Made by a program: the position numbers and the translations under genes
The notes under the pieces: model-generated
What the model was told of the DNA's origin: nothing
Databases searched by the model: none
What the model saw: only the letters and a program-made list of their open reading frames with translations
In this document: positions 1,400 through 16,222 of the stretch, one piece after another
Layout of the letters: each line of letters opens with the position of its first letter
Position numbering within the stretch: the stretch's first letter is position 1
Source: Candidatus Poribacteria bacterium
GTDB taxonomy: Bacteria > Poribacteria > WGA-4E > WGA-3G
Reading direction: 5' to 3'
NCBI GenBank assembly: GCA_028818995.1
Contig: JAPPMR010000042.1
Coordinates: 1 to 16,871 of the forward strand
Length of the DNA: 16,871 nt

Positions 1400-2266
1400 T
1401 TAGCTGCTCCTTGCTTGTAAGCGTGTGAGTTCCGCTTGGAGTCGTGCGTTCTCCGCTTCCGCCTCCTGTCGCGCGATGGCCTCCTGCTCTGCGCGTGTTT
1501 CTGCGGTTTCTGCGCGTGCTTCTGCGTTCTCTGCGCGTGTTTCTGCGGTTTCTGCGCGTGTTTCTGCGTTCTCTGCACGTGCTGACGCTAATTCCGCTTG
1601 TGCTAATGCTGACTCGGCAGGTGTCTGGAGCCAAGCATCACCAACTGGATCGTAAATACCTAAACCCATAACATCGGCAGGGAAATCTAAATTCGGGACA
1701 GGGGAATGCAGCCAACGTCCCACATCACCAATATGGAAATCTAAATTCAGGGCAGGGGAATGCAGCCCACCATCCACATTTGCAGAAATTGGGACGTATA
1801 CACCATCAACCAAGGTAAAACCCATCAGCGGCGATGGCAAATATAACCCTTCTATGTCACATAAGAAGTAGTCTTGGATGCCCAATGAAGCATAAAGTTC
1901 CATCTTGTGCCCTAAGTCGTTTTGATATGTGTTTTTGCTGGAAAACTCCATCGCGAAATCGGGGACCTTGCCCTCTACCCAGACGAGATAGTTCCCTCGG
2001 GGTTTCTTGCCTAAACCGAAGGCAACCAGCACATCGGGTGAAACCGATTTACGCGGGTCACCCTCCACATAATACATGAGTATATCGCCGGAGACATAAG
2101 CACCCGGATCTTGTTTGAAATATTCGTCAAAGACTTGTAACGTCCGCATGAGGATTCGTCTGTGAAGATCACTCACTGCCATCGGTTCTCCATCTTCTTC
2201 AGGGTAAAATATTGACGCGTCTGTAGGAGCAGAAGGGATGTGCTCCTCTTTTTCATGGATTGCCAT
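1400..2266 (-). CDS. Uma2 family endonuclease-like protein with C-terminal heptad coiled coil
   Basis: A 288-residue protein with a Uma2-type (PD-(D/E)XK nuclease-like) fold at about residues 20-165. Pro77-Asp78 (SVSPDVLVAFG), then VPDFAMEFSS with Glu107, and D117..K121 leading into LYASLGIQDYFLCD are the usual family blocks. The C-terminus (228-288) is a predicted coiled coil of near-perfect RAE(N/T)AE(T/A) heptads. Between the two lies an internal duplication around LHSPxxNLDF (residues 168-196). An upstream in-frame ATG at 2356 is rejected because it would overlap the -10 box of the likely promoter; the ATG at 2266 has GGAG about 9 bases upstream. It heads the operon with the PhyH and Ldh2 genes. 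Uma2 proteins are common in cyanobacteria and similar genomes, and their cellular role is not settled; nuclease activity here is inferred from family only. Confidence 0.88.
   Translation of the reverse strand: MAIHEKEEHIPSAPTDASIFYPEEDGEPMAVSDLHRRILMRTLQVFDEYFKQDPGAYVSGDILMYYVEGDPRKSVSPDVLVAFGLGKKPRGNYLVWVEGKVPDFAMEFSSKNTYQNDLGHKMELYASLGIQDYFLCDIEGLYLPSPLMGFTLVDGVYVPISANVDGGLHSPALNLDFHIGDVGRWLHSPVPNLDFPADVMGLGIYDPVGDAWLQTPAESALAQAELASARAENAETRAETAETRAENAEARAETAETRAEQEAIARQEAEAENARLQAELTRLQARSS
1475..1579 (-). repeat. Five tandem 21-bp repeats coding for RAExAEx heptads
   Basis: Residues 230-264 of the Uma2-family protein are five consecutive seven-residue units (RAENAET, RAETAET, RAENAEA, RAETAET, RAEQEAI). 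Each is coded by 21 bp, and the N and T variants alternate so that pairs form a near-identical 42-bp unit. The high DNA identity suggests recent expansion by slippage or unequal crossover. The repeat also opens spurious arginine-rich frames on the same strand. Confidence 0.85.
1681..1767 (-). repeat. Direct duplication of a 33-bp segment inside the Uma2-family gene
   Basis: Two copies of a 33-bp segment, 1681-1713 and 1735-1767, match at 31 of 33 positions. The copies are offset by 54 bp, a multiple of three, so the protein gains one extra LHSPxxNLDF unit without a frameshift. Confidence 0.85.
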
Positions 2267-2343
2267 CGGTGTTTCTCCTTTTCCGTAAGATGCGTGAAAA
2301 ACAGGTGTTAAGCGTTTAAATAAGGATTTATATTGCATTCTTA

Positions 2344-2372
2344 AGTATATCCACAAATCGCGATGTTGTCAA
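2344..2372 (-). promoter_or_regulatory. Sigma-70-type promoter for the Uma2-PhyH-Ldh2 operon
   Basis: On the minus strand there is TTGACA (2372-2367), a 17-bp spacer, and TATACT (2349-2344). That is a perfect -35 box and five of six matches in the -10 box. Transcription would begin near 2337, giving a leader of about 70 bases before the ATG at 2266. Confidence 0.7.
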
Positions 2373-6977: not shown

Positions 6978-7097
6978 AGGACTTACGCATTCCTCTTAAA
7001 GTCCCCCTGATAAGGGGGATTTAGGGGGTTAAAAATACAGAAATTACCGATTTTTTGCGTCTGAATGTCCGATACTTTCTCAATTTGCGTAAGTCCT
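6978..7097. repeat. 120-bp palindromic MITE/REP-like element
   Basis: The ends are perfect 12-bp inverted repeats, aggacttacgca (6978-6989) and tgcgtaagtcct (7086-7097). Inside is a C5/G5 hairpin (7003-7007 with 7014-7018) followed by attta and another run of G. Such C/G-run palindromes are known as dispersed intergenic repeats in several bacterial groups. The element carries no gene. It supplies a spurious in-frame ATG (7065) to the dehydrogenase downstream, which is one reason to place that gene's start at 7152. Whether it is mobile or a folded RNA or termination element is not decided by the sequence. Confidence 0.65.
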
Positions 7098-7151
7098 GAT
7101 GGAAAAGGAAACGCTAATCCTTCAGCAACGTCAATAGGAGATTTGAACGTC

Positions 7152-7961
7152 ATGCAAAAGGTTGCTGTTATCACTGGCGCAGCAAGCGGCATCGGACGCG
7201 GACTGGCGGAACGGTTCGCAGCAGAAGGTATGAGGGTCGTCATCGCTGATGTTGAAGACCAAGCGTTAGCCGAACTTGAAGCGGACTTAAAAACTAACGG
7301 GGCAACTGTTCTCACCGTCAGGACGGATGTCTCAAACGCCGCCGAGGTCGAAAACCTTGCGGTGCAAACGCTGGACACTTTCGGCGCGGTGCATATCCTC
7401 TGCAACAATGCTGGTGTTGTCTGTAGTCGTCCTATCTGGGAGCATACCCTTGCCGATTGGGAATGGGTGTTGGGCGTTAACCTGTGGGGCGTAATTCACG
7501 GTATCCGGGCATTTGTGCCACGTATGCTTACACAAGGGGACGCGTGCCATATCGTAAATACGGCTTCTATTTTGGGGTTGGTAGGTGGGAGCGGCGAAGG
7601 CATCTATAAGGTAAGCAAACATGGTGTCGTCGCGCTTTCCGAAACCCTCGCCGATGAATTGGCACAGAAAGGTGCTAATATTCAGGTACATGTACTTTGC
7701 CCGGGATGGGTCCGCACAGGTATTCTGGATTCCGCCCGAAACCGTCCGGACACATTACAAAATCCAAAAGTGGAAACGCTCCCACGTCAAGAAACCATCG
7801 GTGGTTCTCGAAACGTCCGCGCCGAGATGGAGGCGGGGATGTCACCCGCAGAAGTAGCTGAGCATGTCTATAACGCTATCCAGAACGGCACCTTCTATAT
7901 TCACACCCATCCTGAGCACAAAGCATGGATTCGCCAGCGTATGGAGCGTATTCTTGCATAG
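7152..7961 (+). CDS. SDR-family NAD-dependent oxidoreductase
   Basis: A 269-residue classical short-chain dehydrogenase/reductase, cytosolic, acting on an alcohol or ketone. The cofactor loop is TGAASGIG (8-15) and NNAG is at 85-88. The catalytic residues are Ser139 (NTASILG), Tyr152 and Lys156 (YKVSK). Asp33 at the end of the second strand (VIADVED) suggests NAD(H) rather than NADP(H). PGWVRTG (184-190) is the usual post-catalytic block. The ATG at 7152 is chosen because the protein then begins MQKVAVITG, as family members do, with GGAG 11 bases upstream (7137-7140); the longer frame from 7065 starts inside a repeat element. It stands alone on the plus strand. Substrate unknown. Confidence 0.9.
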   Translation: MQKVAVITGAASGIGRGLAERFAAEGMRVVIADVEDQALAELEADLKTNGATVLTVRTDVSNAAEVENLAVQTLDTFGAVHILCNNAGVVCSRPIWEHTLADWEWVLGVNLWGVIHGIRAFVPRMLTQGDACHIVNTASILGLVGGSGEGIYKVSKHGVVALSETLADELAQKGANIQVHVLCPGWVRTGILDSARNRPDTLQNPKVETLPRQETIGGSRNVRAEMEAGMSPAEVAEHVYNAIQNGTFYIHTHPEHKAWIRQRMERILA

Positions 7962-8002
7962 TTTCTGCGTTAAAATATAGAAAGTAAAATGTCTCTTTTT
8001 TC

Positions 8003-8031
8003 TTGACAAAAAAGTGGAAGAGGTGTGAAAT
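8003..8031 (+). promoter_or_regulatory. Possible promoter for the restriction-modification genes
   Basis: TTGACA (8003-8008) is followed after 17 bp by TGAAAT (8026-8031), itself preceded by TG at the extended -10 position. The -35 box is perfect but the -10 is weak. The transcript would start just before the hairpin at 8041-8060, with a leader of about 125 bases before the methyltransferase ATG. Confidence 0.3.
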
Positions 8032-8040
8032 ATTAAAAGA

Positions 8041-8091
8041 GGGGCGATGTGGGTCGCCCCATACCAACCAAATGAACTGAGTAAATTTGGT
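8041..8091. repeat. Two adjacent hairpins, likely dispersed intergenic repeat
   Basis: The first hairpin is ggggcga (8041-8047) pairing with tcgcccc (8054-8060), a perfect 7-bp stem with a 6-base loop. The second is accaaat (8067-8073) pairing with atttggt (8085-8091) with an 11-base loop. No T-run follows the first, so it is not a standard terminator. It lies between the dehydrogenase stop and the restriction-modification genes. The 'ggggcga...tcgcccc' type is a familiar repeat motif in unrelated bacteria, which suggests a dispersed element. Confidence 0.55.
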
Positions 8092-8162
8092 CATTTTGTG
8101 TCGGCATTCTTATTTTAAACTGCTCGCCATAAAATGTCAACCCAATTTTTATGGAGGAAAAA

Positions 8163-8942
8163 ATGGCGATAAAAGACGGATTTTTCGTTGCGGATTGCGT
8201 TGAATTTATGAGTCGTATGGATGAAGGAGTCGTTGATTTGACTGTGACTTCTCCGCCTTACGATAATTTACGGGATTATAAAGGTTATTCGTTTGATTTT
8301 GAGAATATTGCAAGGGAGTTGTATAGGGTGACAAAGTCGGGTGGAATTGTTGTTTGGGTAGTTGGCGATAAAATTAAAAAAGGTCGCTCACTTACCAGTT
8401 TCCGGCAAGGTCTGTTTTTCCAAGAAATTGGTTTCCAAATGCACGACGTTATGATTTATCAGAAAAAAAACACGCCTTTTATGCGAAGTAATGCCTACAC
8501 GAACTGCTATGAATTTATGTTCGTGTTATCAAAAGGGAGGCCAAATACCTTTAATCCGTTAAAGGTCGAAACAGCCAGACATGGACCAGAAATGCTCGTC
8601 TATAACAAAAAGTCTGATGGTATAAACAAAAAGACGCTCAAGGAGCTGAAAAAGGAAAAGACACGTACTAACATTTGGTCCTATGCTGTCGGTCTTGGAG
8701 GCACTACAAGCGATAGGATAGCTTTCAAACATCCAGCCGTTTTCCCCGAAGGGTTAGCGGAAGATCACATTTTGTCTTGGACAAATCCAGGAGATCTTGT
8801 GTTTGACCCTATGTGTGGAAGTGGCACAACAGGAAAAATGGCACTCATACACAGACGCAGATTTATGGGGGTTGACATTTCCGAAGAGTACATTGCCATC
8901 GCAAAAAAACGTATAGAAGCACTAAACTTAGAAATGCTATGA
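8163..8942 (+). CDS. DNA amino-methyltransferase (N4-cytosine/N6-adenine), beta class, of a type II R-M system
   Basis: A 259-residue S-adenosylmethionine-dependent DNA methyltransferase. Catalytic motif IV, TSPPY, is at residues 29-33. The AdoMet-binding motif I, FDPMCGSGTTG, is at 214-224, followed by GVDISEEYIAIAKKR. The order IV before I makes it beta class, and the SPPY form leans towards N4-cytosine methylation, though N6-adenine is possible. The true start is the ATG at 8163: the in-frame ATG at 8151 is itself part of the sequence carrying the Shine-Dalgarno GGAGG (8153-8157). The stop overlaps the start of the nuclease gene (ATGA), so the modifier is made first and the two are coupled. 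It should protect the host genome from that nuclease. The locus looks richer in A+T than its neighbours, which fits transfer. Confidence 0.93.
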   Translation: MAIKDGFFVADCVEFMSRMDEGVVDLTVTSPPYDNLRDYKGYSFDFENIARELYRVTKSGGIVVWVVGDKIKKGRSLTSFRQGLFFQEIGFQMHDVMIYQKKNTPFMRSNAYTNCYEFMFVLSKGRPNTFNPLKVETARHGPEMLVYNKKSDGINKKTLKELKKEKTRTNIWSYAVGLGGTTSDRIAFKHPAVFPEGLAEDHILSWTNPGDLVFDPMCGSGTTGKMALIHRRRFMGVDISEEYIAIAKKRIEALNLEML

Positions 8943-9535
8943 AAATAGATGATTTTGTTATTGCAACACAACCTATCAATGGAATTGTTGTGAATTCCGT
9001 TGGGATAATCAATTCAATTTGTGAAAAAGGTGTACAGGTCTATTTCATTGGGAGAAATGAGGTCGTAATAGCACCATTTAATTCTCTTCAAGTTATAAAT
9101 ATTGGTGAAACTGGAGAGGAGTACTCGGTCAAAATTTGCAACGTCTGTCACATTCTCAAACCAAAAGATGAGTTTGACAGAAATCAAACCAATGCCAGCG
9201 GAAGACCTACCACACGCCCAAGTTGTAAAAACTGTCGGAAAGTTATTGAGGGAGAAAAAATGCCGACATCAGAGCGGAGGAAGATGAATGCAAGACGACC
9301 GTCGGATCAAACGGTTTTTATATGCCCCATCTGTGAGAAACGGACAATTGTAGACGTAACTGCAAAGATTGTTGCTGATCACGACCACGACACAGGAGAA
9401 GGACGCGAGTGGATCTGTGATAGTTGCAACACCGGTTTAGGTAGATTCAAAGACAACATTGCGATTTTAGAAACGGCTATTGAATATCTGAAACGTTTTG
9501 AAGACGATGAATCAGAGGATTCGGATTCACAATAA
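8939..9535 (+). CDS. Hpy99I-like beta-beta-alpha-Me (Endo VII/HNH) restriction endonuclease
   Basis: A 198-residue protein with three visible parts. Residues 1-58 look like a small beta barrel. Two zinc repeats follow: Cys67/Cys70 with Cys96/Cys99, and Cys129/Cys132 with Cys160/Cys163. The second repeat holds the nuclease site VADHDHDTGEGREW, with Asp147 and His148, and Asn164 just after Cys163. As I recall it, Hpy99I (188 residues) has the same order (barrel, then two zinc repeats with paired CXXC) and uses Asp148, His149 and Asn165, so the spacing is identical. The C-terminus, LGRFKDNIAILETAIEYL, is typical of endonuclease VII relatives. The enzyme should act as a dimer cutting DNA not modified by the upstream methyltransferase. 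It lacks its own Shine-Dalgarno and depends on ATGA coupling. Its recognition sequence may or may not be the CGWCG of Hpy99I. Confidence 0.88.
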   Translation: MKIDDFVIATQPINGIVVNSVGIINSICEKGVQVYFIGRNEVVIAPFNSLQVINIGETGEEYSVKICNVCHILKPKDEFDRNQTNASGRPTTRPSCKNCRKVIEGEKMPTSERRKMNARRPSDQTVFICPICEKRTIVDVTAKIVADHDHDTGEGREWICDSCNTGLGRFKDNIAILETAIEYLKRFEDDESEDSDSQ

Positions 9536-9572
9536 AGTGTAGAGTTATTATCTTTTGGAGGAAATCTATATT

Positions 9573-10511
9573 ATGAGAACGAAAATCACGTTTTCGATAA
9601 TTAGTTTTGTGATGTTGCTGATCGCGAGTTTATCCTTTTCCACATCGGTTTTCGCACAGCAGGCACTGGAGAATTCTATAACAAAAGACATCCCGTTGAC
9701 GCATCCACATATTGATGGTGGTGGTGTGCTAACGTTAGACCTATCTAAGGATTTAGGGCTAACCACCGACGAAGTTGTTGAACTCGTCAAGGCTCTATCT
9801 GTATCTGCAGGAGAGACTGGGACACTTGAAGTTGCTACTAAGGGTGGTACAATTGCACTGCTGAAACCAGCAAATTCTTCCATTCATCCCAAGGCACTTG
9901 TCCTTCGCGAGATCAAAACCGAACTCGTAGCAGAAGTCGTGGGCGCGGATGGTAAAGATGGGGAGTTTATATTTCGATTGACCCCGCAACCTTTTCCAGA
10001 CGAATCAATTATCGAGATTAAAAAAGTTGTCTTAATTAAACTTTACAATACGACCAAAAGTCGAATCAACCTACAGGATTGGCAAATTCGATTCACCTAT
10101 GGTGCGAACCCCGATGTAACAACTGAACGGGTTATTGACAGAATGAGCAATGTGGATGCAAAGACTTGGGCGCATAGCAAGCAGCGCGATCCACAAAGCA
10201 TATTCTCTGTAAAGAGTCTCATAATGTCTCGTCAGATTGATTTTAAGCTTCTTACCGATCCAATGAAGACAAAGGATGAGCAGTTATCAGCTATTTCAGA
10301 TGGCACTCTGCAGACAGGTTGGAATATCAACATGAAACCTGTTAAGCCTGAGCCGGTTGGGAATGGATTACCCCAATGGATTGAAATTTACAACCGCAAG
10401 GATGGAGCAACAACAATCCGGGTTGAGATGCGTGAAACTGATGAACCTGTAGTTCCCCCTGAAAATCCAGAAGTCATTATTGATCCTGCACCGCCAACTG
10501 AAGATTTCTAA
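9573..10511 (+). CDS. Exported protein of unknown function, possible lamin-tail-like segments
   Basis: A 312-residue protein that I do not recognise as a named family. It begins with a clear signal peptide: basic MRTK, a hydrophobic core at 5-24, and a likely cleavage after Ala28 (SVFA-QQ), so it is probably periplasmic or secreted. Residues 152-174 (VLIKLYNTTKSRINLQDWQI) resemble the edge strands of lamin-tail-like beta domains, and a second similar strand, PQWIEIYNRKDG, is near 268. The last 25 residues are proline- and acid-rich. The frame is open upstream to a TTG at 9555, but the ATG at 9573 gives a proper signal peptide and has GGAGG (9557-9561) 11 bases upstream. It follows the nuclease gene by 37 bp on the same strand and may be co-transcribed by read-through. 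A link to restriction is not supported. Confidence 0.75.
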   Translation: MRTKITFSIISFVMLLIASLSFSTSVFAQQALENSITKDIPLTHPHIDGGGVLTLDLSKDLGLTTDEVVELVKALSVSAGETGTLEVATKGGTIALLKPANSSIHPKALVLREIKTELVAEVVGADGKDGEFIFRLTPQPFPDESIIEIKKVVLIKLYNTTKSRINLQDWQIRFTYGANPDVTTERVIDRMSNVDAKTWAHSKQRDPQSIFSVKSLIMSRQIDFKLLTDPMKTKDEQLSAISDGTLQTGWNINMKPVKPEPVGNGLPQWIEIYNRKDGATTIRVEMRETDEPVVPPENPEVIIDPAPPTEDF

Positions 10512-10548
10512 AAGAATTAAGCAAGACTCGTTTTGTAATTTTTCTACA

Positions 10549-10576
10549 GGGGCGGTGCTTCTGTGCCGTCCCTTTT
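10549..10576 (+). terminator. Rho-independent terminator after the exported protein gene
   Basis: GGGGCGG (10549-10555) pairs with CCGTCCC (10566-10572), seven pairs with one G-U, around a short central loop, and TTTT follows. It lies 38 bp after the stop codon. The T-run is short, so efficiency may be modest. Confidence 0.65.
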
Positions 10577-10601
10577 AGTTCGGTTTGAAGCGTCGCTGTC
10601 C

Positions 10602-10772
10602 TTATAGTTTCTCTTTTAAGAAACTGAGTGCCTCGTCAAGAATCAATAAGAAGAAACCTCCGTAAATTATTATTACGGCTTCAAAACCAGACAGTCCGAC
10701 ACCGTTTGTGATTGATGCAATAAAAACAAGCAGCATTAGGATATAAATAACGGCTTGTCTGAAAGTTCGCAT
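10602..10772 (-). CDS. Small two-helix membrane protein (56 aa)
   Basis: A 56-residue protein, MRTFRQAVIYILMLLVF to FLKEKL. It has two hydrophobic stretches at about 8-21 and 32-46, joined by a short polar turn (TNGVGLSG), with charged ends, so it is probably a small inner-membrane protein. The Shine-Dalgarno is good (AAGGAG, with five bases between GGAG and the ATG) and sits in the 12-bp gap after the alcohol dehydrogenase stop, so the two genes form an operon. I do not recognise the family. The clean reading frame, ribosome binding site and amphipathic layout support a real gene; the function is unknown. Confidence 0.7.
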   Translation of the reverse strand: MRTFRQAVIYILMLLVFIASITNGVGLSGFEAVIIIYGGFFLLILDEALSFLKEKL

Positions 10773-10784
10773 GATGTCTCCTTG

Positions 10785-11867
10785 TTAAGTCAAATCAAGC
10801 ACACTCCGTGCGACTTCACCTTTTGCCAAAGCCTCAAATGCATCGTTAATCCCTTCCAGGGGATAGGTGCGCGTGACGAGTTCGTCCAGTTTGAGTTGTC
10901 CGCCTTTATAGAGCGAGACCAAACGCGGGAAGTCCACATGTGGGCGCGCGGTTCCATACATCGAACCGATAACCATTTTCTCCGGCATCAGCATCCGTGC
11001 GTCAAATTCAACAGATGTGTTCTCCGGTGCATGTCCGACGAAGACCGTTACGCCTCTGCTCCGTGTGCAGAGAATCGCCTGCCGGAATGTTTCACCGATC
11101 AACCCGATTGCCTCAAACGCATAATGGACACCACGTCCATTAGTAATCTCCCTAATCTGTTCTACGGGGTCTGCTTTGGCGGCGTTAACGGTGTGGGTGG
11201 CACCGAACTGCCTACCGAGTTCAAGTTTGTTGTCGAGGACATCGACAGCGATAATCGGTTCGCCGCCAGAGAGGGCGGCACCTTGGATGCAATTGAGGCC
11301 GACCCCGCCGCATCCGAAGACGGCGACTGAACTGCCGGGCGCGACTTGTGCCGTGTTGATAGCCGCACCGACACCCGTCATCACGCCACACCCGATGAGC
11401 GCGGCTTGGGCAAACGGCATGTCCTTATCGATCGGAATAACTGCGTCCTGTGGGACAAGCGTCTCAGTCCCGAACGTTCCTAATCCGGACATCTGGTCTA
11501 TCTCTCGTCCACTCGTTTTTATAGCTGGTTTACCTGACCCGTCGGCGGGAAGCGCACACAAGTTCGGATATCCCTTCTGACACATCTCGCAGTATCCACA
11601 ATTCCGTTTCCATGAAAGGATAACATGATCGCCGACTTGCACTTGGGTTACGTCGCTCCCGATCTCTTCTATAACACCCGCCCCTTCATGCCCCAGGATA
11701 ACAGGTAACCTAACGAAGGGCCAATCCCCCTTAACGACATGCCAATCGGAATGACAGACACCACTGGCGACCAATCGCACCCGCACCTGATTTGCACTTG
11801 GACGGGGTAAGTCGAATTCTTCAATTTTTAAATGCGTGTCGGTTTCATATAATACTGCAGCTTTCAT
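10785..11867 (-). CDS. Zinc-dependent alcohol dehydrogenase (class III/MDR type)
   Basis: A 360-residue medium-chain dehydrogenase that oxidises alcohols to aldehydes or the reverse with NAD(H), in the cytoplasm. Catalytic zinc ligands are Cys38 (SGVCHSDWH), His60-Glu61 (GHEGAG) and Cys160 (GCGVMTG). The structural zinc is held by Cys90, Cys93, Cys96 and Cys104. The Rossmann loop is GCGGVG (185-190), with Asp209 (VDV) ending the second strand, which points to NAD. Layout and length match the class III / S-(hydroxymethyl)glutathione dehydrogenase-like group, but the loop AIKTSGREIDQMSGLGTF is also found in general acyclic alcohol dehydrogenases. GGAGG lies six bases before the ATG. It follows the YjjX gene by 36 bp and precedes the small membrane protein. 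Substrate not determined. Confidence 0.93.
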   Translation of the reverse strand: MKAAVLYETDTHLKIEEFDLPRPSANQVRVRLVASGVCHSDWHVVKGDWPFVRLPVILGHEGAGVIEEIGSDVTQVQVGDHVILSWKRNCGYCEMCQKGYPNLCALPADGSGKPAIKTSGREIDQMSGLGTFGTETLVPQDAVIPIDKDMPFAQAALIGCGVMTGVGAAINTAQVAPGSSVAVFGCGGVGLNCIQGAALSGGEPIIAVDVLDNKLELGRQFGATHTVNAAKADPVEQIREITNGRGVHYAFEAIGLIGETFRQAILCTRSRGVTVFVGHAPENTSVEFDARMLMPEKMVIGSMYGTARPHVDFPRLVSLYKGGQLKLDELVTRTYPLEGINDAFEALAKGEVARSVLDLT

Positions 11868-12874: not shown

Positions 12875-13168
12875 TCATTCCTGACCTTCAATGAGCGAGA
12901 TGCCTTTTTCAGTGATCCACCACCGATTTACGGCGTTGCTTTCGACAACCCTATCCTCGCGGAGATGATAGAGAATGCCCTCAATCAGCGAAACATTGTC
13001 AATATCCTTTCCTCCAGGCTTCTTGATTCCAAACCTTTCGCTAATCTGTAGGCGTGTTAAGTTTTGCGGGTCTCCAGATGTCTGTTCTTCATATAATACG
13101 ATAAGCACCGCTTGCTTGAGGATTTCTAAGCCGTAAGACGCAAATGTATTTCGTGTGTTGCCGTTCAT
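12875..13168 (-). CDS. Small winged-helix-like protein (97 aa), last gene of accessory operon
   Basis: A 97-residue protein with a predicted helical start (ASYGLEILKQAVLIVLYEE, about 10-28). A helix-turn-helix-like segment (LTRLQISERFG, 37-47) follows, then a helix (SLIEGILYHLRED) and a beta hairpin ending NRWWITEKGISLIE. That order is typical of small winged-helix DNA-binding proteins where the hairpin forms the wing. I do not recognise a named family. The start overlaps the stop of the gene before it (ATGA), with GGAG seven bases upstream. It may act as a regulator of its operon; this is inference. Confidence 0.6.
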   Translation of the reverse strand: MNGNTRNTFASYGLEILKQAVLIVLYEEQTSGDPQNLTRLQISERFGIKKPGGKDIDNVSLIEGILYHLREDRVVESNAVNRWWITEKGISLIEGQE

Positions 13169-13413
13169 TGTAAAACTCCAGTGTTGAGTTCTTTAGAAAA
13201 TCCCTTGATTCTCAAAAACTCATTTTCAGTGATGATGCCGCGGTATTCGATAGGCTGACCATCTCTAACGTGAGATACGATAATATGGAATTCACCGTTC
13301 ATCCTGAGATGAATGGAAATTTTCGACACGGCTTTTAAGGGTTCCTTTTCTCCAGACACCAAATTTATCGTAATGTCAATGGAATTCTCATATTCAAAGT
13401 GTTTGGAAATCAT
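13165..13413 (-). CDS. Hypothetical protein (82 aa), third gene of accessory operon
   Basis: An 82-residue, mostly beta-strand protein of unknown family (ITINLVSGEK, KISIHLRMNG, FHIIVSHVRD). No signal peptide, membrane segment or metal motif is seen. It is joined at both ends by ATGA overlaps, to the HTH/GIY-YIG-like gene before it and the winged-helix-like gene after it, and has GGAG seven bases before its ATG. That tight packing is the main evidence that it is real and works with its neighbours. Confidence 0.6.
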   Translation of the reverse strand: MISKHFEYENSIDITINLVSGEKEPLKAVSKISIHLRMNGEFHIIVSHVRDGQPIEYRGIITENEFLRIKGFSKELNTGVLQ

Positions 13414-13949
13414 ATATCCGCTCCTTCATTGAGTAATGTTTCTGTTTTTATCCGTCCGTTAAACATTTCAGAAAGCACATTAGGGTCTGATATACAAAGG
13501 TCATTGATTTCTTCGCGAAAACCTGCGTCGATAAATACCCACTCTCTATCCGGGCGGGTCCGCTCAAACGCTTGGTTTAGAAAATAGTCGTGATTTTCTG
13601 AGGCTTGCCCCTCGCTACTACACGGCATAATAGCGATTAGGACTGGGTCATCTGTAGGATGATACGTTTTTACCATCCGTCCCTCTAATCCACCTATAGT
13701 CGTTTTACCTATCTTCGCGTACCGACTATCGCCAGACCATCTCCACGCATATACAATATTTAGGGCTTCTCTTATTTTATAGCGTGTTCGTCCTTTGATC
13801 TTCTGAAGTATGTGGAATACTGTTGAGTCAGGTATACCTGTGAGTTCCGTTATTTCTGCCCGTGTTGCCTTTGGATTTTCTTTGAGTATTTCAGCAATTG
13901 CCGATTCTTTCTCTGGACGTGACGCTTTGCTGATATCTGATTTGTTCAT
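13410..13949 (-). CDS. HTH fused to GIY-YIG-like (T5orf172/MUG113-type) domain protein
   Basis: A 179-residue protein with two parts. Residues 12-52 form a helix-turn-helix of the winged type (ATRAEITELTGIPDSTVFHI). Residues 64-150 resemble the T5orf172/MUG113 branch of GIY-YIG nucleases: NIVYAWRW, then YAKIGKT (77-83) with the family's K-I-G, Arg91, Glu118 (SENHDYF) and REWVFID (135-141). Such domains are common in phages and mobile elements. Nuclease activity needs the Tyr, Arg and Glu residues, and candidates for each are present, but the match is by pattern only. GGAG lies 10 bases before the ATG, next to the stop codon of the 53-residue gene upstream. It is the largest gene in the operon and probably central to its job. 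Confidence 0.65.
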   Translation of the reverse strand: MNKSDISKASRPEKESAIAEILKENPKATRAEITELTGIPDSTVFHILQKIKGRTRYKIREALNIVYAWRWSGDSRYAKIGKTTIGGLEGRMVKTYHPTDDPVLIAIMPCSSEGQASENHDYFLNQAFERTRPDREWVFIDAGFREEINDLCISDPNVLSEMFNGRIKTETLLNEGADI

Positions 13950-13964
13950 ATCAAAATGTCTCCT

Positions 13965-14126
13965 CTAACGAACCATTGATTTGATTTTATTCTCAGGAAA
14001 ACCTTCTCTTTGTAATATATCATCCATCCAGGGTTCAGATTTTACAAAAGCACCTTTAGGGAATTTCTTTTTAATTTGTTCCAACTTTGTATAAGTGTTT
14101 TGTGTATCGTCTTTTACTTTTGGCAT
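13965..14126 (-). CDS. Small hypothetical protein (53 aa), first gene of accessory operon
   Basis: A 53-residue lysine-rich, soluble protein (MPKVKDDTQNTYTKLEQI to FPENKIKSMVR). It has AAGGAG upstream (GGAG seven bases before the ATG), and its TAG stop is immediately followed by the ribosome binding site of the HTH/GIY-YIG-like gene, 15 bp before that gene's start. No family is recognised. Its position as the leader of a tight four-gene operon and its good ribosome binding site support it; a small antitoxin-like or regulatory partner is possible but is only a guess. Confidence 0.6.
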   Translation of the reverse strand: MPKVKDDTQNTYTKLEQIKKKFPKGAFVKSEPWMDDILQREGFPENKIKSMVR

Positions 14127-14179
14127 TATTGTACTCCTTTTTTGCTTGACAGAAGCCTTTAATCTGGTTTCTTAGAGCG

Positions 14180-14881
14180 TCATTGCGTTGAAATGCGAAA
14201 TCCTTTTTGGGTTTGGGTTATGGTGATCCCTAAGCTTTGGAGATACATCAAATCGTCCTCGGTGATACGCTTAAGGCTTTCAGTACCACCGTTGGCTTGC
14301 TGCCAGAATGCGAGTGTCTTTTGTGTGGATCTGTAGGGGAACAAGTGATAGGCGGCTTCAAGTCCCGCGATTTTCTCGTCGAGCGATAGTGGCATATCGC
14401 TTTTGAACTTGCGGTCGTATTCCATATATGTATGCACTTGCGGAATATCACCAAATTTTTCGAGGAGCTGGTTGTACTCCGCTGCATAGAGTTCATCAGG
14501 ATCCATCGTTGCGGGGTCGCCTATCCACGTGCCGCGCGCTTTGGCTTGGTTCTCCTGAATGAAATCGCTCCACGGATCAGTTTCTGAGAGATGTTCATGG
14601 GGTGGGGCATCATGAGTGCGCCAATCTTCAATCAATTCCGATCGGTCTTGATGGACGGCTTGATGGACGGTCGGCTCTTGGGTCTCTATAGGTTCAGGTG
14701 CTGTTGTCGGCGGTGCCGCAGCCGGTTGAGGCTCATGAGTGTGTACCTCGGCATCTGGGCGTTCTACGGGAAGCGTAGGTTGTGGGAGATTGTCACGGAA
14801 ATTTCGGTTGTCTATTTCTACGTAGATGGTTATCGCCGCGAGTGCGAGAAAGAAGAGTGCAAGGAAAATAGGTATTTTCAT
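14180..14881 (-). CDS. Membrane-anchored protein with proline/histidine-rich linker, unknown function
   Basis: A 233-residue protein with a single N-terminal hydrophobic segment (residues 3-22, IPIFLALFFLALAAITIYV) and no obvious cleavage site, so it is likely a signal anchor with the rest outside the membrane. Residues 33-100 are a low-complexity stretch rich in Pro, Thr, Glu and His. The C-terminal 130 residues are mainly helical and charged (SDFIQENQAKARGTW, EYNQLLEKFGDIPQVHTY, LDEKIAGLEAAYHLFPY). I do not recognise a family. The Shine-Dalgarno is weak. The leader upstream contains an 8-bp inverted repeat. It ends 54 bp before the small accessory operon and may be co-transcribed with it. 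Confidence 0.7.
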   Translation of the reverse strand: MKIPIFLALFFLALAAITIYVEIDNRNFRDNLPQPTLPVERPDAEVHTHEPQPAAAPPTTAPEPIETQEPTVHQAVHQDRSELIEDWRTHDAPPHEHLSETDPWSDFIQENQAKARGTWIGDPATMDPDELYAAEYNQLLEKFGDIPQVHTYMEYDRKFKSDMPLSLDEKIAGLEAAYHLFPYRSTQKTLAFWQQANGGTESLKRITEDDLMYLQSLGITITQTQKGFRISTQ

Positions 14882-15017: not shown

Positions 15018-15020
15018 AGT
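15018..15020. repeat. Target site duplication, left copy (AGT)
   Basis: The 3-bp AGT immediately outside the left end of the insertion sequence is repeated at 16262-16264 immediately outside the right end. Three-base duplications are normal for IS3-family elements. Confidence 0.7.
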
Positions 15021-15046
15021 TGTACTGCCACCGGAAATTTAGACCA
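15021..15046 (+). repeat. IS left terminal inverted repeat
   Basis: Begins tgtactgccaccgg and pairs with the right end at 21 of 26 positions. Mismatches fall at positions 3, 5 and 14-16. Confidence 0.8.
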
Positions 15047-15064
15047 CTCTCTAATATAAGATTG

Positions 15065-15073
15065 TGCTACAAT
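15065..15073 (+). promoter_or_regulatory. Extended -10 promoter for the transposase
   Basis: TGCTACAAT (15065-15073) is an extended -10 with five of six matches in TACAAT. There is no good -35 box at the right distance. A Shine-Dalgarno AAAGGAG (15087-15093) follows, seven bases before the OrfA ATG. Confidence 0.4.
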
Positions 15074-15100
15074 GACAATCTATTTGAAAGGAGAAATCCG

Positions 15101-15397
15101 ATGGCGAAACGAAGAAGATTCACTGCTAAGTTTAAAGCAGAAGTTGTGCTTGAGGCTCTTAGCGGTGAAAGTTCACAAGCGGAACTGTGTCGACGTCATA
15201 ACCTCAGCGAAAACCAGGTCTCGACATGGAAACGCCAACTTCTTGAAAATGTTGAAACCTTCTTTGAATCGGAAACCGATAAGCAGTCAAGCGAGTCAGC
15301 GGAGCGGATCGCTCAACTTGAGCAAATAGTTGGCCGGTTGACGCTGGCGTTGGAAATTCAAAAAAAGCATCGACTTTGTTGGATTGATGCCGTCTGA
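15101..15397 (+). CDS. IS3-family transposase OrfA
   Basis: A 98-residue protein that binds the IS ends. It starts MAKRRRFTAKFKAEVVLEAL and contains the usual helix-turn-helix (SQAELCRRHNLSENQVSTWK, residues 27-46). A leucine-zipper-like helix follows (IAQLEQIVGRLTLALEIQKK). The start at 15101 is fixed by AAAGGAG seven bases upstream. The last nine residues (HRLCWIDAV) follow an A7G run and are not typical; this tail is the product made without frameshifting. It should pair with OrfB by a -1 shift at the A-run, but the frames do not fit (see OrfB). Confidence 0.9.
   Translation: MAKRRRFTAKFKAEVVLEALSGESSQAELCRRHNLSENQVSTWKRQLLENVETFFESETDKQSSESAERIAQLEQIVGRLTLALEIQKKHRLCWIDAV
15360..15367 (+). 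promoter_or_regulatory. A7G slippery sequence of the transposase
   Basis: Seven A residues followed by G lie within the 3' part of OrfA, the usual site of programmed -1 frameshifting in IS3 elements. After a -1 shift the frame reads KKASTLLD and then stops at TGA (15385-15387), instead of entering OrfB. Confidence 0.55.
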
Positions 15398-16222
15398 ACA
15401 GCGACGCATCGTTGAGACGTTGCGCAAGGAGTATTCCATGCGACAGATTTGTGAGACGCTGGGTTTCAACAAGAGCACCTTCTATTATCAACCGAAAATA
15501 GACACCTCTGAAGATGCCCTGCGCGCCGAAATACAGCGATTAGCTACGGCGTATCCGACGTACGGGTATAGACGTATCACGAAGTTGCTGGCGACCGAAG
15601 GACACACCGTTGGATATAAACGTGTGGCTCGGTTGATGAAAGAAGATAATCTCTCGGTCTCGGTGAAACGTGTCTGTCAAACCACGAACTCCCTTGAAGG
15701 TTCACACCCTTGGGTCAATAGACTGCAGACCCTTGAGATCTCCCGATGTAATCAGGTCTGGGTTGGCGATATTACCTACGTCCGTCTCAAGAAACGCTTC
15801 ATTTATCTCGCGCTGCTCATGGATGTCTTCACTCGCATGATAAGAGGGTGGCATCTAAGCCAACAGTTGACGCAATCTCTGACATTGAAACCCTTGGAGG
15901 CAGCCTTACACCAAAGTGTCCCAGAGATCCACCATTCTGATCAAAGCGTGCAGTATCTTTCAAAGGCGTATCTCTCGAAGCTCAAAGAGTACGGTATTGA
16001 GATTTCGGTAGCTCGCAGAGGGTGTCCTTGGGAGAACGGATACGCCGAAAGGTTGATCCGAACCCTCAAGGAAGAAGAAGTTCACCTCAATGATTACGAA
16101 GATATTACCGAGGCTCGACAACGCATCGGGCATTTTATCACACACGTGTATCATCGGAAACGCCGCATTCGGCGTTAGGGTATCTGACACCTATGGAATT
16201 TCAACGACAAACCTTATCTTAA
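15387..16222 (+). pseudogene. IS3-family transposase OrfB (DDE integrase core), frameshifted near its C-terminus
   Basis: The catalytic half of the transposase. From the ATG at 15387 the frame gives 263 residues. It has the IS3 HTH_21-like region (PTYGYRRITKLL, 57-68) and the DDE triad Asp128 (WVGDITYV), Asp185 (HHSDQSVQY) and Glu221 (ENGYAERLIRTLK), with 35 residues between the last two, as in the family. It then ends abnormally at HRKRRIRR (16178). The expected ending HSALGYLTPMEFQRQTLS is present in the -1 frame from 16166 to TAA at 16222, so one base has probably been lost within 16161-16166. The gene lies in the +1 frame relative to OrfA rather than the usual -1, and may be translated, if at all, from its own TTG (15384) or ATG. 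Confidence 0.85.

Follow-up and report, generated by a model that had tools for sequence, protein, structure and literature searches.

A compact Hpy99I-family restriction-modification pair at a variable site in Candidatus Poribacteria

Two short, overlapping genes lying between convergent dehydrogenase genes of Candidatus Poribacteria raise the questions of what their products do, which DNA sequence they would act on, and what kind of site they occupy. We analyzed them in a stretch of 16,871 nucleotides, referred to here as the window. A preliminary description, made from the letters of the window alone, had proposed a beta-class amino-methyltransferase (M) overlapping a 198-residue nuclease (R) by ATGA. 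Both open reading frames are present, encoding 259 and 198 amino acids, the shared ATGA occupies positions 8939-8942, and M contains the expected PF01555 domain. The start of M is likely at 8163, because the alternative in-frame ATG at 8151 overlaps GGAGG. The G+C content of 7801-9900 is 39-42%, compared with 44-56% for most of the window, and is equally low at 10201-10800 and 12901-14400. In our reading, to which we assign a probability of roughly 0.88, M and R constitute a compact type II restriction-modification (R-M) system of the Hpy99I family, with CGWCG as its most likely target, carried as cargo of a variable site. The features on which this reading draws are collected in Table 1.

Table 1. 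Coordinates of the R-M pair, its parts, its neighbors, and the related pair M2-R2. Positions refer to the window unless a locus is named.
Feature	Position	Strand	Basis and remarks
Short-chain dehydrogenase (SDR), left edge of site	7065..7961	+	PF00106, 170.5 bits; in 34/38 genus genomes
R-M segment without counterpart in G018	7969..9536	+	51 bp there instead, from the end of the dehydrogenase to the gene at 9588-10511
M	8163..8942	+	Beta-class N4/N6 amino-methyltransferase; PF01555, 148 bits; kin of M adjoining Hpy99I orthologues
R	8939..9535	+	Hpy99I-family beta-beta-alpha-Me restriction endonuclease; 3fc3, PADLOC, AlphaFold/Foldseek
R, SH3-like N-terminal barrel	residues 1-51, 8939..9091	+	PF18350 SH3_17, 44.2 bits (cut-off 27.7)
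R, first b4a2 repeat	residues 55-105, 9101..9253	+	PF18275 His_Me_b4a2, 75.1 bits; zinc C67/70/96/99
R, second repeat	residues 124-185, 9308..9493	+	PF02945 Endonuclease_7, 69.5 bits; D147/H148/N164; zinc C129/132/160/163
Secreted-protein-like gene	9588..10511	+	Occupies site without R-M pair in G018 and G012
Zinc-type alcohol dehydrogenase (ADH), right edge of site	10785..11867	-	PF08240 + PF00107; convergent to SDR
M2-R2	L070:1436-2678; also L054, L062, L063, L071, L079, L080, L082-L085		M2/R2 homology

R is a full-length homologue of Hpy99I, the Helicobacter pylori J99 enzyme (PDB 3fc3, 3gox) whose nuclease gene we take to be jhp0755; the two share the domain plan, the spacing of the catalytic triad, and eight zinc cysteines. 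The plan had been proposed from the letters as a barrel, two zinc repeats with paired CXXC motifs, and a beta-beta-alpha-Me site, and it was borne out by the conserved residues and by three Pfam domains, SH3_17, His_Me_b4a2, and Endonuclease_7, all of which score above their gathering thresholds. In a comparison of R with all PDB sequences, Hpy99I (3fc3) was the only strong match, aligning with residues 2-188 of 198 (238.8 bits, E 3.2e-70), and the second-best match had an E of 0.05. An AlphaFold model of R made from 58 sequences (pLDDT 91.3) has barrel strands at residues 6-9, 20-28, 31-36, 41-45, and 50-53. When this monomer model was searched with Foldseek, both 3fc3 chains ranked first (3fc3_A: E 6.2e-26, TM 0.80/0.84, 58% identity, rmsd 5.3 A), in agreement with the structural likeness anticipated earlier; the first match other than Hpy99I had an E of 2.1e-3. 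PADLOC matched R to REase_II with 242.3 bits. The ordered plan of cysteine pairs, DH, and CN occurred in none of 100,000 letter shuffles of R.

The active site is equally well conserved. The spacing of D147, H148, and N164 had been equated with that of D148, H149, and N165 of Hpy99I, and these are the residues given in the part of PMC3765158 that we draw on. In an alignment of R with 57 proteins, chosen from the best 120 of 1290 matches, the triad and the eight zinc cysteines are invariant in all 58 rows. We also scanned genomes with R and found 43 loci, at 40 of which all 11 residues are present; the remaining three (L046, L048, L049) align over part of their length, and no substitution was seen there. 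The zinc-bound beta-beta-alpha-Me catalytic domain is shared with T4 endonuclease VII and with Gmet_0936. According to the same part of PMC3765158, the former is junction-specific, and the latter, which has neither Hpy99I residues 1-105 nor a companion methyltransferase, prefers damaged DNA. Given the barrel, the first repeat, and the partner M, we rejected the reading of R as a plain endonuclease VII resolvase.

In M, SPPY at residue 30 precedes DPMCGSG at residue 215, the order that defines the beta class of amino-methyltransferases. Enzymes of this class have their target recognition in the middle part of the protein, and in M this part is conserved as well as any other: relative to the M adjoining the Hpy99I orthologue of Helicobacter canis, 69 of 88 residues are identical in the middle segment, compared with 35/56, 29/37, and 48/67 in the remaining segments. 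Helicobacter M homologues adjoining R share 67-72% identity with the window M, a comparison that used loci of species other than H. pylori rather than jhp0756 itself. PADLOC scored M higher as oMTase (PDLC03714, 271.6 bits) than as MTase_II (PDLC03353, 215.1 bits). M.Hpy99I (jhp0756) is listed, in the section of PMC3936762 on which we rely, as a type II enzyme of the beta class whose product is m4C in CGWCG, and the predicted product of the window M is likewise N4-methylcytosine in CGWCG.

The preliminary description considered a new recognition sequence plausible, as R seemed divergent in its barrel and first zinc repeat. R is 57% identical overall to the H. pylori homologue P0120, and the divergence is indeed greatest in the barrel (22/51 identical) and in the spacer between the repeats (5/18); R also ends in an acidic tail of about 10 residues. 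The first repeat, however, is identical at 32 of 51 positions, and the catalytic repeat at 47 of 62, so that only the barrel half of the argument stood. On the conservation of this first repeat and of the middle segment of M, we rejected a new target for the window pair. A broader form of the idea is that the Poribacteria enzymes belong to the same family and share its mechanism, with their clade as a whole having moved away from CGWCG to a different target. The Poribacteria R proteins do form a starred clade of their own, and the divergent barrel lies within residues 1-105 of Hpy99I (barrel plus first zinc repeat), which the portion of PMC3765158 concerned with these residues describes as mediating DNA binding and dimerization. 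Such a shift would nevertheless need both enzymes to change together, and it is at odds with the two conserved repeats of R and with the middle segment of M. We therefore consider it unlikely, and retain CGWCG as the most probable target.

Cleavage by Hpy99I at CGWCG leaves a five-base 3' overhang. If the window pair works in the same way, M would methylate the amino group of cytosine in the host's own target sites, and R, as a homodimer of subunits each made up of barrel, zinc repeat, and beta-beta-alpha-Me zinc repeat, would cut incoming DNA that is unmethylated, both enzymes acting at the same sequence, most likely CGWCG. One metal ion would be held by Asp147 and Asn164, His148 would serve as general base, and the zinc ions would be structural; this mechanism is taken from Hpy99I as presented in parts of PMC4081073 and PMC3765158. 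We looked for a trace of restriction in base composition by counting CGWCG in four of the 38 genus genomes (344-388 kb per genome, drawn from 20 contigs at no more than 20 kb per contig). Observed/expected ratios were 0.90 and 0.93 in two carriers of the pair (z -3.6 and -2.5) and 0.92 and 0.89 in two genomes with an empty site (z -2.7 and -3.9). CGWCG is thus mildly rare in carriers and non-carriers alike, and composition does not point to restriction having acted on it for long. In the same four genomes (G001, G042, G002, G008; L093-L172), CCWGG was strongly under-represented, with observed/expected ratios of 0.46-0.48, independently of what occupies the site.

M and R occur together well beyond the window. 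A homologue of M, 64-87% identical, adjoins R at 42 of the 43 loci, and the one exception, L048, contains an incomplete R. The two genes are in tandem at 19 loci, convergent at 22, and divergent at one (L027). At four of the 43 (L015, L046, L048, L049) R is broken or partly matched. Both genes are under purifying selection, with dN/dS values in three pairs of 0.04-0.06 for M and 0.07-0.10 for R. In the nearest genome, G001, which has 55% of sampled words in common with the window, R is 100% and M 99.2% identical at the amino-acid level. We built trees of R and M in which we retained 42 of 46 rows of the Hpy99I type (those with aligned lengths of 150 or more for R and 200 or more for M), together with 8 of the 11 loci of the related pair M2-R2 described below; several branches are open or unstarred in both trees, and the tree label 'convergent' includes the divergent L027. 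The window, G001, G042, G044, and a Poribacteria record (L010) group together, starred, in both trees, which fits M and R traveling as a pair. Between the window and G042, however, dS amounts to 0.39 for R but 1.49 for M, so that the two genes have not always had one shared history; on at least one occasion, R as a whole or in part seems to have moved or recombined independently of M.

The pair occupies a site that is variable within the genus. Homology of the window with G018 (L060), as seen by blastn, ends at 7968 and restarts at 9537, and about 1.57 kb including the pair is therefore either additional in the window or absent from G018. The secreted-protein-like gene that follows is not thought to be part of the R-M system. 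We searched 38 genomes of the genus with both edge genes. ADH was found at 92% identity or more in 30 of them, partially in two of these, and three further genomes match it only by a paralogue of 51-52% identity. Both edges lay on one contig in 29 genomes, which were classed, including L071 with only the last 74 SDR codons and L080 with part of ADH; nine were left unclassed, and in one of these (G044) an Hpy99I-type pair lies beside SDR with ADH off the contig. Among the 29 intervals, seven are empty (12-36 bp, counting the stop codons), three hold a single 63-aa ORF, four a lipoprotein-like gene, and two the secreted-protein-like gene alone; in three more, the 63-aa ORF is accompanied by a DUF4258 protein and its 82-aa partner. 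Two (G001 and G042) have the Hpy99I-type pair, and seven have M2-R2 in the opposite orientation, some with a decayed nuclease. The last, in G003, has a 36-residue remnant of M2 alongside other genes.

R-M pairs of two homologous types, decayed nucleases included, are thus present in 9 of 29 intervals, or 10 of 30 with the window. To this may be added the interval with the M2 remnant, and such recurrence argues against the idea that the convergent genes simply flank a tolerant gap in which no particular exchange of R-M types takes place. On the other hand, a tolerant gap would account for the lipoprotein-like, 63-aa, DUF4258, and secreted-protein-like genes housed in the same place, and no integrase was seen among the ORFs listed for the intervals. 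On a tree of SDR plus ADH, moreover, the M2-R2 and empty states, taken singly, were clustered no more than expected when labels are shuffled (numbers as low were reached in 203 and 500 of 500 shuffles, respectively). Over the 30 rows of this tree, the four states (empty, Hpy99I-type pair, M2-R2, other) needed 12 changes; the shuffled mean was 14.8, and a number as low was reached in 7 of 200 shuffles. The window and G001 are joined here in a starred clade by G002 and G008, whose sites are empty. We give the tolerant gap even odds. Counting the window with the 29 classed genomes, there are 30 related alleles of the site, some of them empty, in which the gain and exchange of R-M genes and the decay of their nucleases can be watched.

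Some further features of the intervals may be mentioned. In L072 and L073, diverged copies of the 3' end of ADH (27 and 38 codons) lie inside the SDR-ADH interval, and the DUF4258 gene and 82-aa ORF of the same two loci could be a toxin-antitoxin pair. Beside the R-M pair of G042 there is a 333-aa ORF (L077:2976-3977, minus strand) that has no Pfam match at E 0.1.

The second type of pair, M2-R2, is homologous to M-R in both genes and keeps the zinc repeats and the DH...N residues, while the barrel is absent from R2. M2 (269-299 aa at 11 loci) is 45-47% identical to the window M over about 250 aa, with 30 of 88 residues identical in the middle segment. R2, of 132 aa in L005, where the two genes overlap by 32 bp, is 38% identical to R over 130 aa; its alignment with both R and Hpy99I starts at the first zinc repeat and includes four CXXC motifs and DH...CN. 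PF02945 is its only Pfam domain above the cut-off, and its best PDB sequence match is Hpy99I residues 76-196 (58.2 bits). In sequence, R2 aligns to the 3fc3 chain beginning at residue 76, and its model has no barrel strands; the two 3fc3 chains were the first PDB matches of the model in Foldseek, with TM of 0.70 and 0.74 by query (3fc3_A 0.74). Within the genus, M2 is found in 11 of 38 genomes, in seven of them at the window's own site, and an Hpy99I-type M in three of 38. Both types occur in G042, which has the Hpy99I-type pair at the site and, away from it (L084:109-890), two tandem copies of R2 with one M2.

Relatives of R2 numbered 55 in a large protein set, 29 of which (P0241-P0269) are at least 68% identical over at least 90% of the query; 32 of the 55 entered the R2 alignment. 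The named relative is a 'hypothetical protein' of Candidatus Poribacteria, the only organism name shown. A search of 72 genomes of the order with R2 gave matches in 23, of which three match via the Hpy99I-type nuclease only (G001, G044, G069) and three by short fragments (G003, G046, G075), leaving R2 proper in 17 of the 72 genomes and in 2 of 10 genera. M2-R2 may act as a restriction system that lacks the barrel and has a different target. The fuller proposal, that pairs of common R-M origin replace each other at this site throughout the genus and that R2, made up of just two zinc repeats, is a working, barrel-free enzyme with a target other than CGWCG, is more tentative, and we would sooner bet against it than for it. 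If true, R2 would be a minimal restriction enzyme of the endonuclease VII type, and R and R2, with and without the barrel, would form a natural pair for asking which part of Hpy99I reads DNA.

R2 is whole, with all eight cysteines, at 7 of the 11 M2 loci (in G042, one of two copies), and damaged or incomplete at the other four: two zinc cysteines are lost in G006, stops interrupt it in G014, a 28-aa fragment is left in G003, and it is partly masked in G047. Such decay is expected if a restriction gene can be lost while its methyltransferase stays. It also lends some weight to the alternative that R itself is inactive, or is a repair- or resolvase-like nuclease of the endonuclease VII kind, and that M acts as an orphan methyltransferase, as the name 'orphan' of the top PADLOC model for M would suggest. 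A precedent is Gmet_0936, which has the same catalytic fold and is reported in part of PMC3765158 to nick weakly. However, the decayed nucleases belong to M2-R2 loci, and R is broken or partly matched at only 4 of the 43 Hpy99I-type loci. The window R is open and full length, with its barrel, and is identical to that of G001; R is moreover under purifying selection and stands beside M homologues at nearly every locus. An inactive R or an orphan M thus seems very improbable, even more so than a shifted target, and we favor a complete R-M system.

Lastly, we asked how far the pair extends what is known. The seven Helicobacter loci retrieved (L014, L016-L019, L046, L047) have the same tandem order, M then R, and the same methyltransferase family as the window. 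According to PMC6083498, 12 of 13 Helicobacter relatives adjoin a methylase. Four proteins of Poribacteria (P0004, P0005, P0007, P0065) are 64-89% identical to R and have the same three domains, and two of them, P0007 and P0065 from Candidatus Poribacteria, already bear the NCBI name 'Hpy99I family type II restriction endonuclease'. R-M loci of this type also come from records titled Bacteroidota, Spirochaetota, Campylobacterota, Pseudomonadota, and archaea. The expectation that the window would widen the known range of the family was therefore not upheld, and the NCBI names rule out Poribacteria as a new host range; the window pair is one more member of a family that databases recognize in Poribacteria. 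A literature search for Poribacteria together with Hpy99I found no paper. Poribacteria are a phylum known from sponges. Two studies report an abundance of R-M genes in sponge symbionts (PMC5649159, PMC5099237). What is new here is the variable site and, judging by the names given in databases, the barrel-less relative.

Elsewhere in the window we observed three further features. A Uma2-family ORF at 1400-2356 (minus strand) has an ARAENAETRAE-like repeat near its end. A 179-aa ORF at 13410-13949 (minus strand) has a weak helix-turn-helix match below the Pfam cut-off, and its C-terminal part may resemble a GIY-YIG/T5orf172 nuclease. An IS3-family insertion sequence lies at 15020-16178 (plus strand), its OrfA and OrfB frames overlapping.
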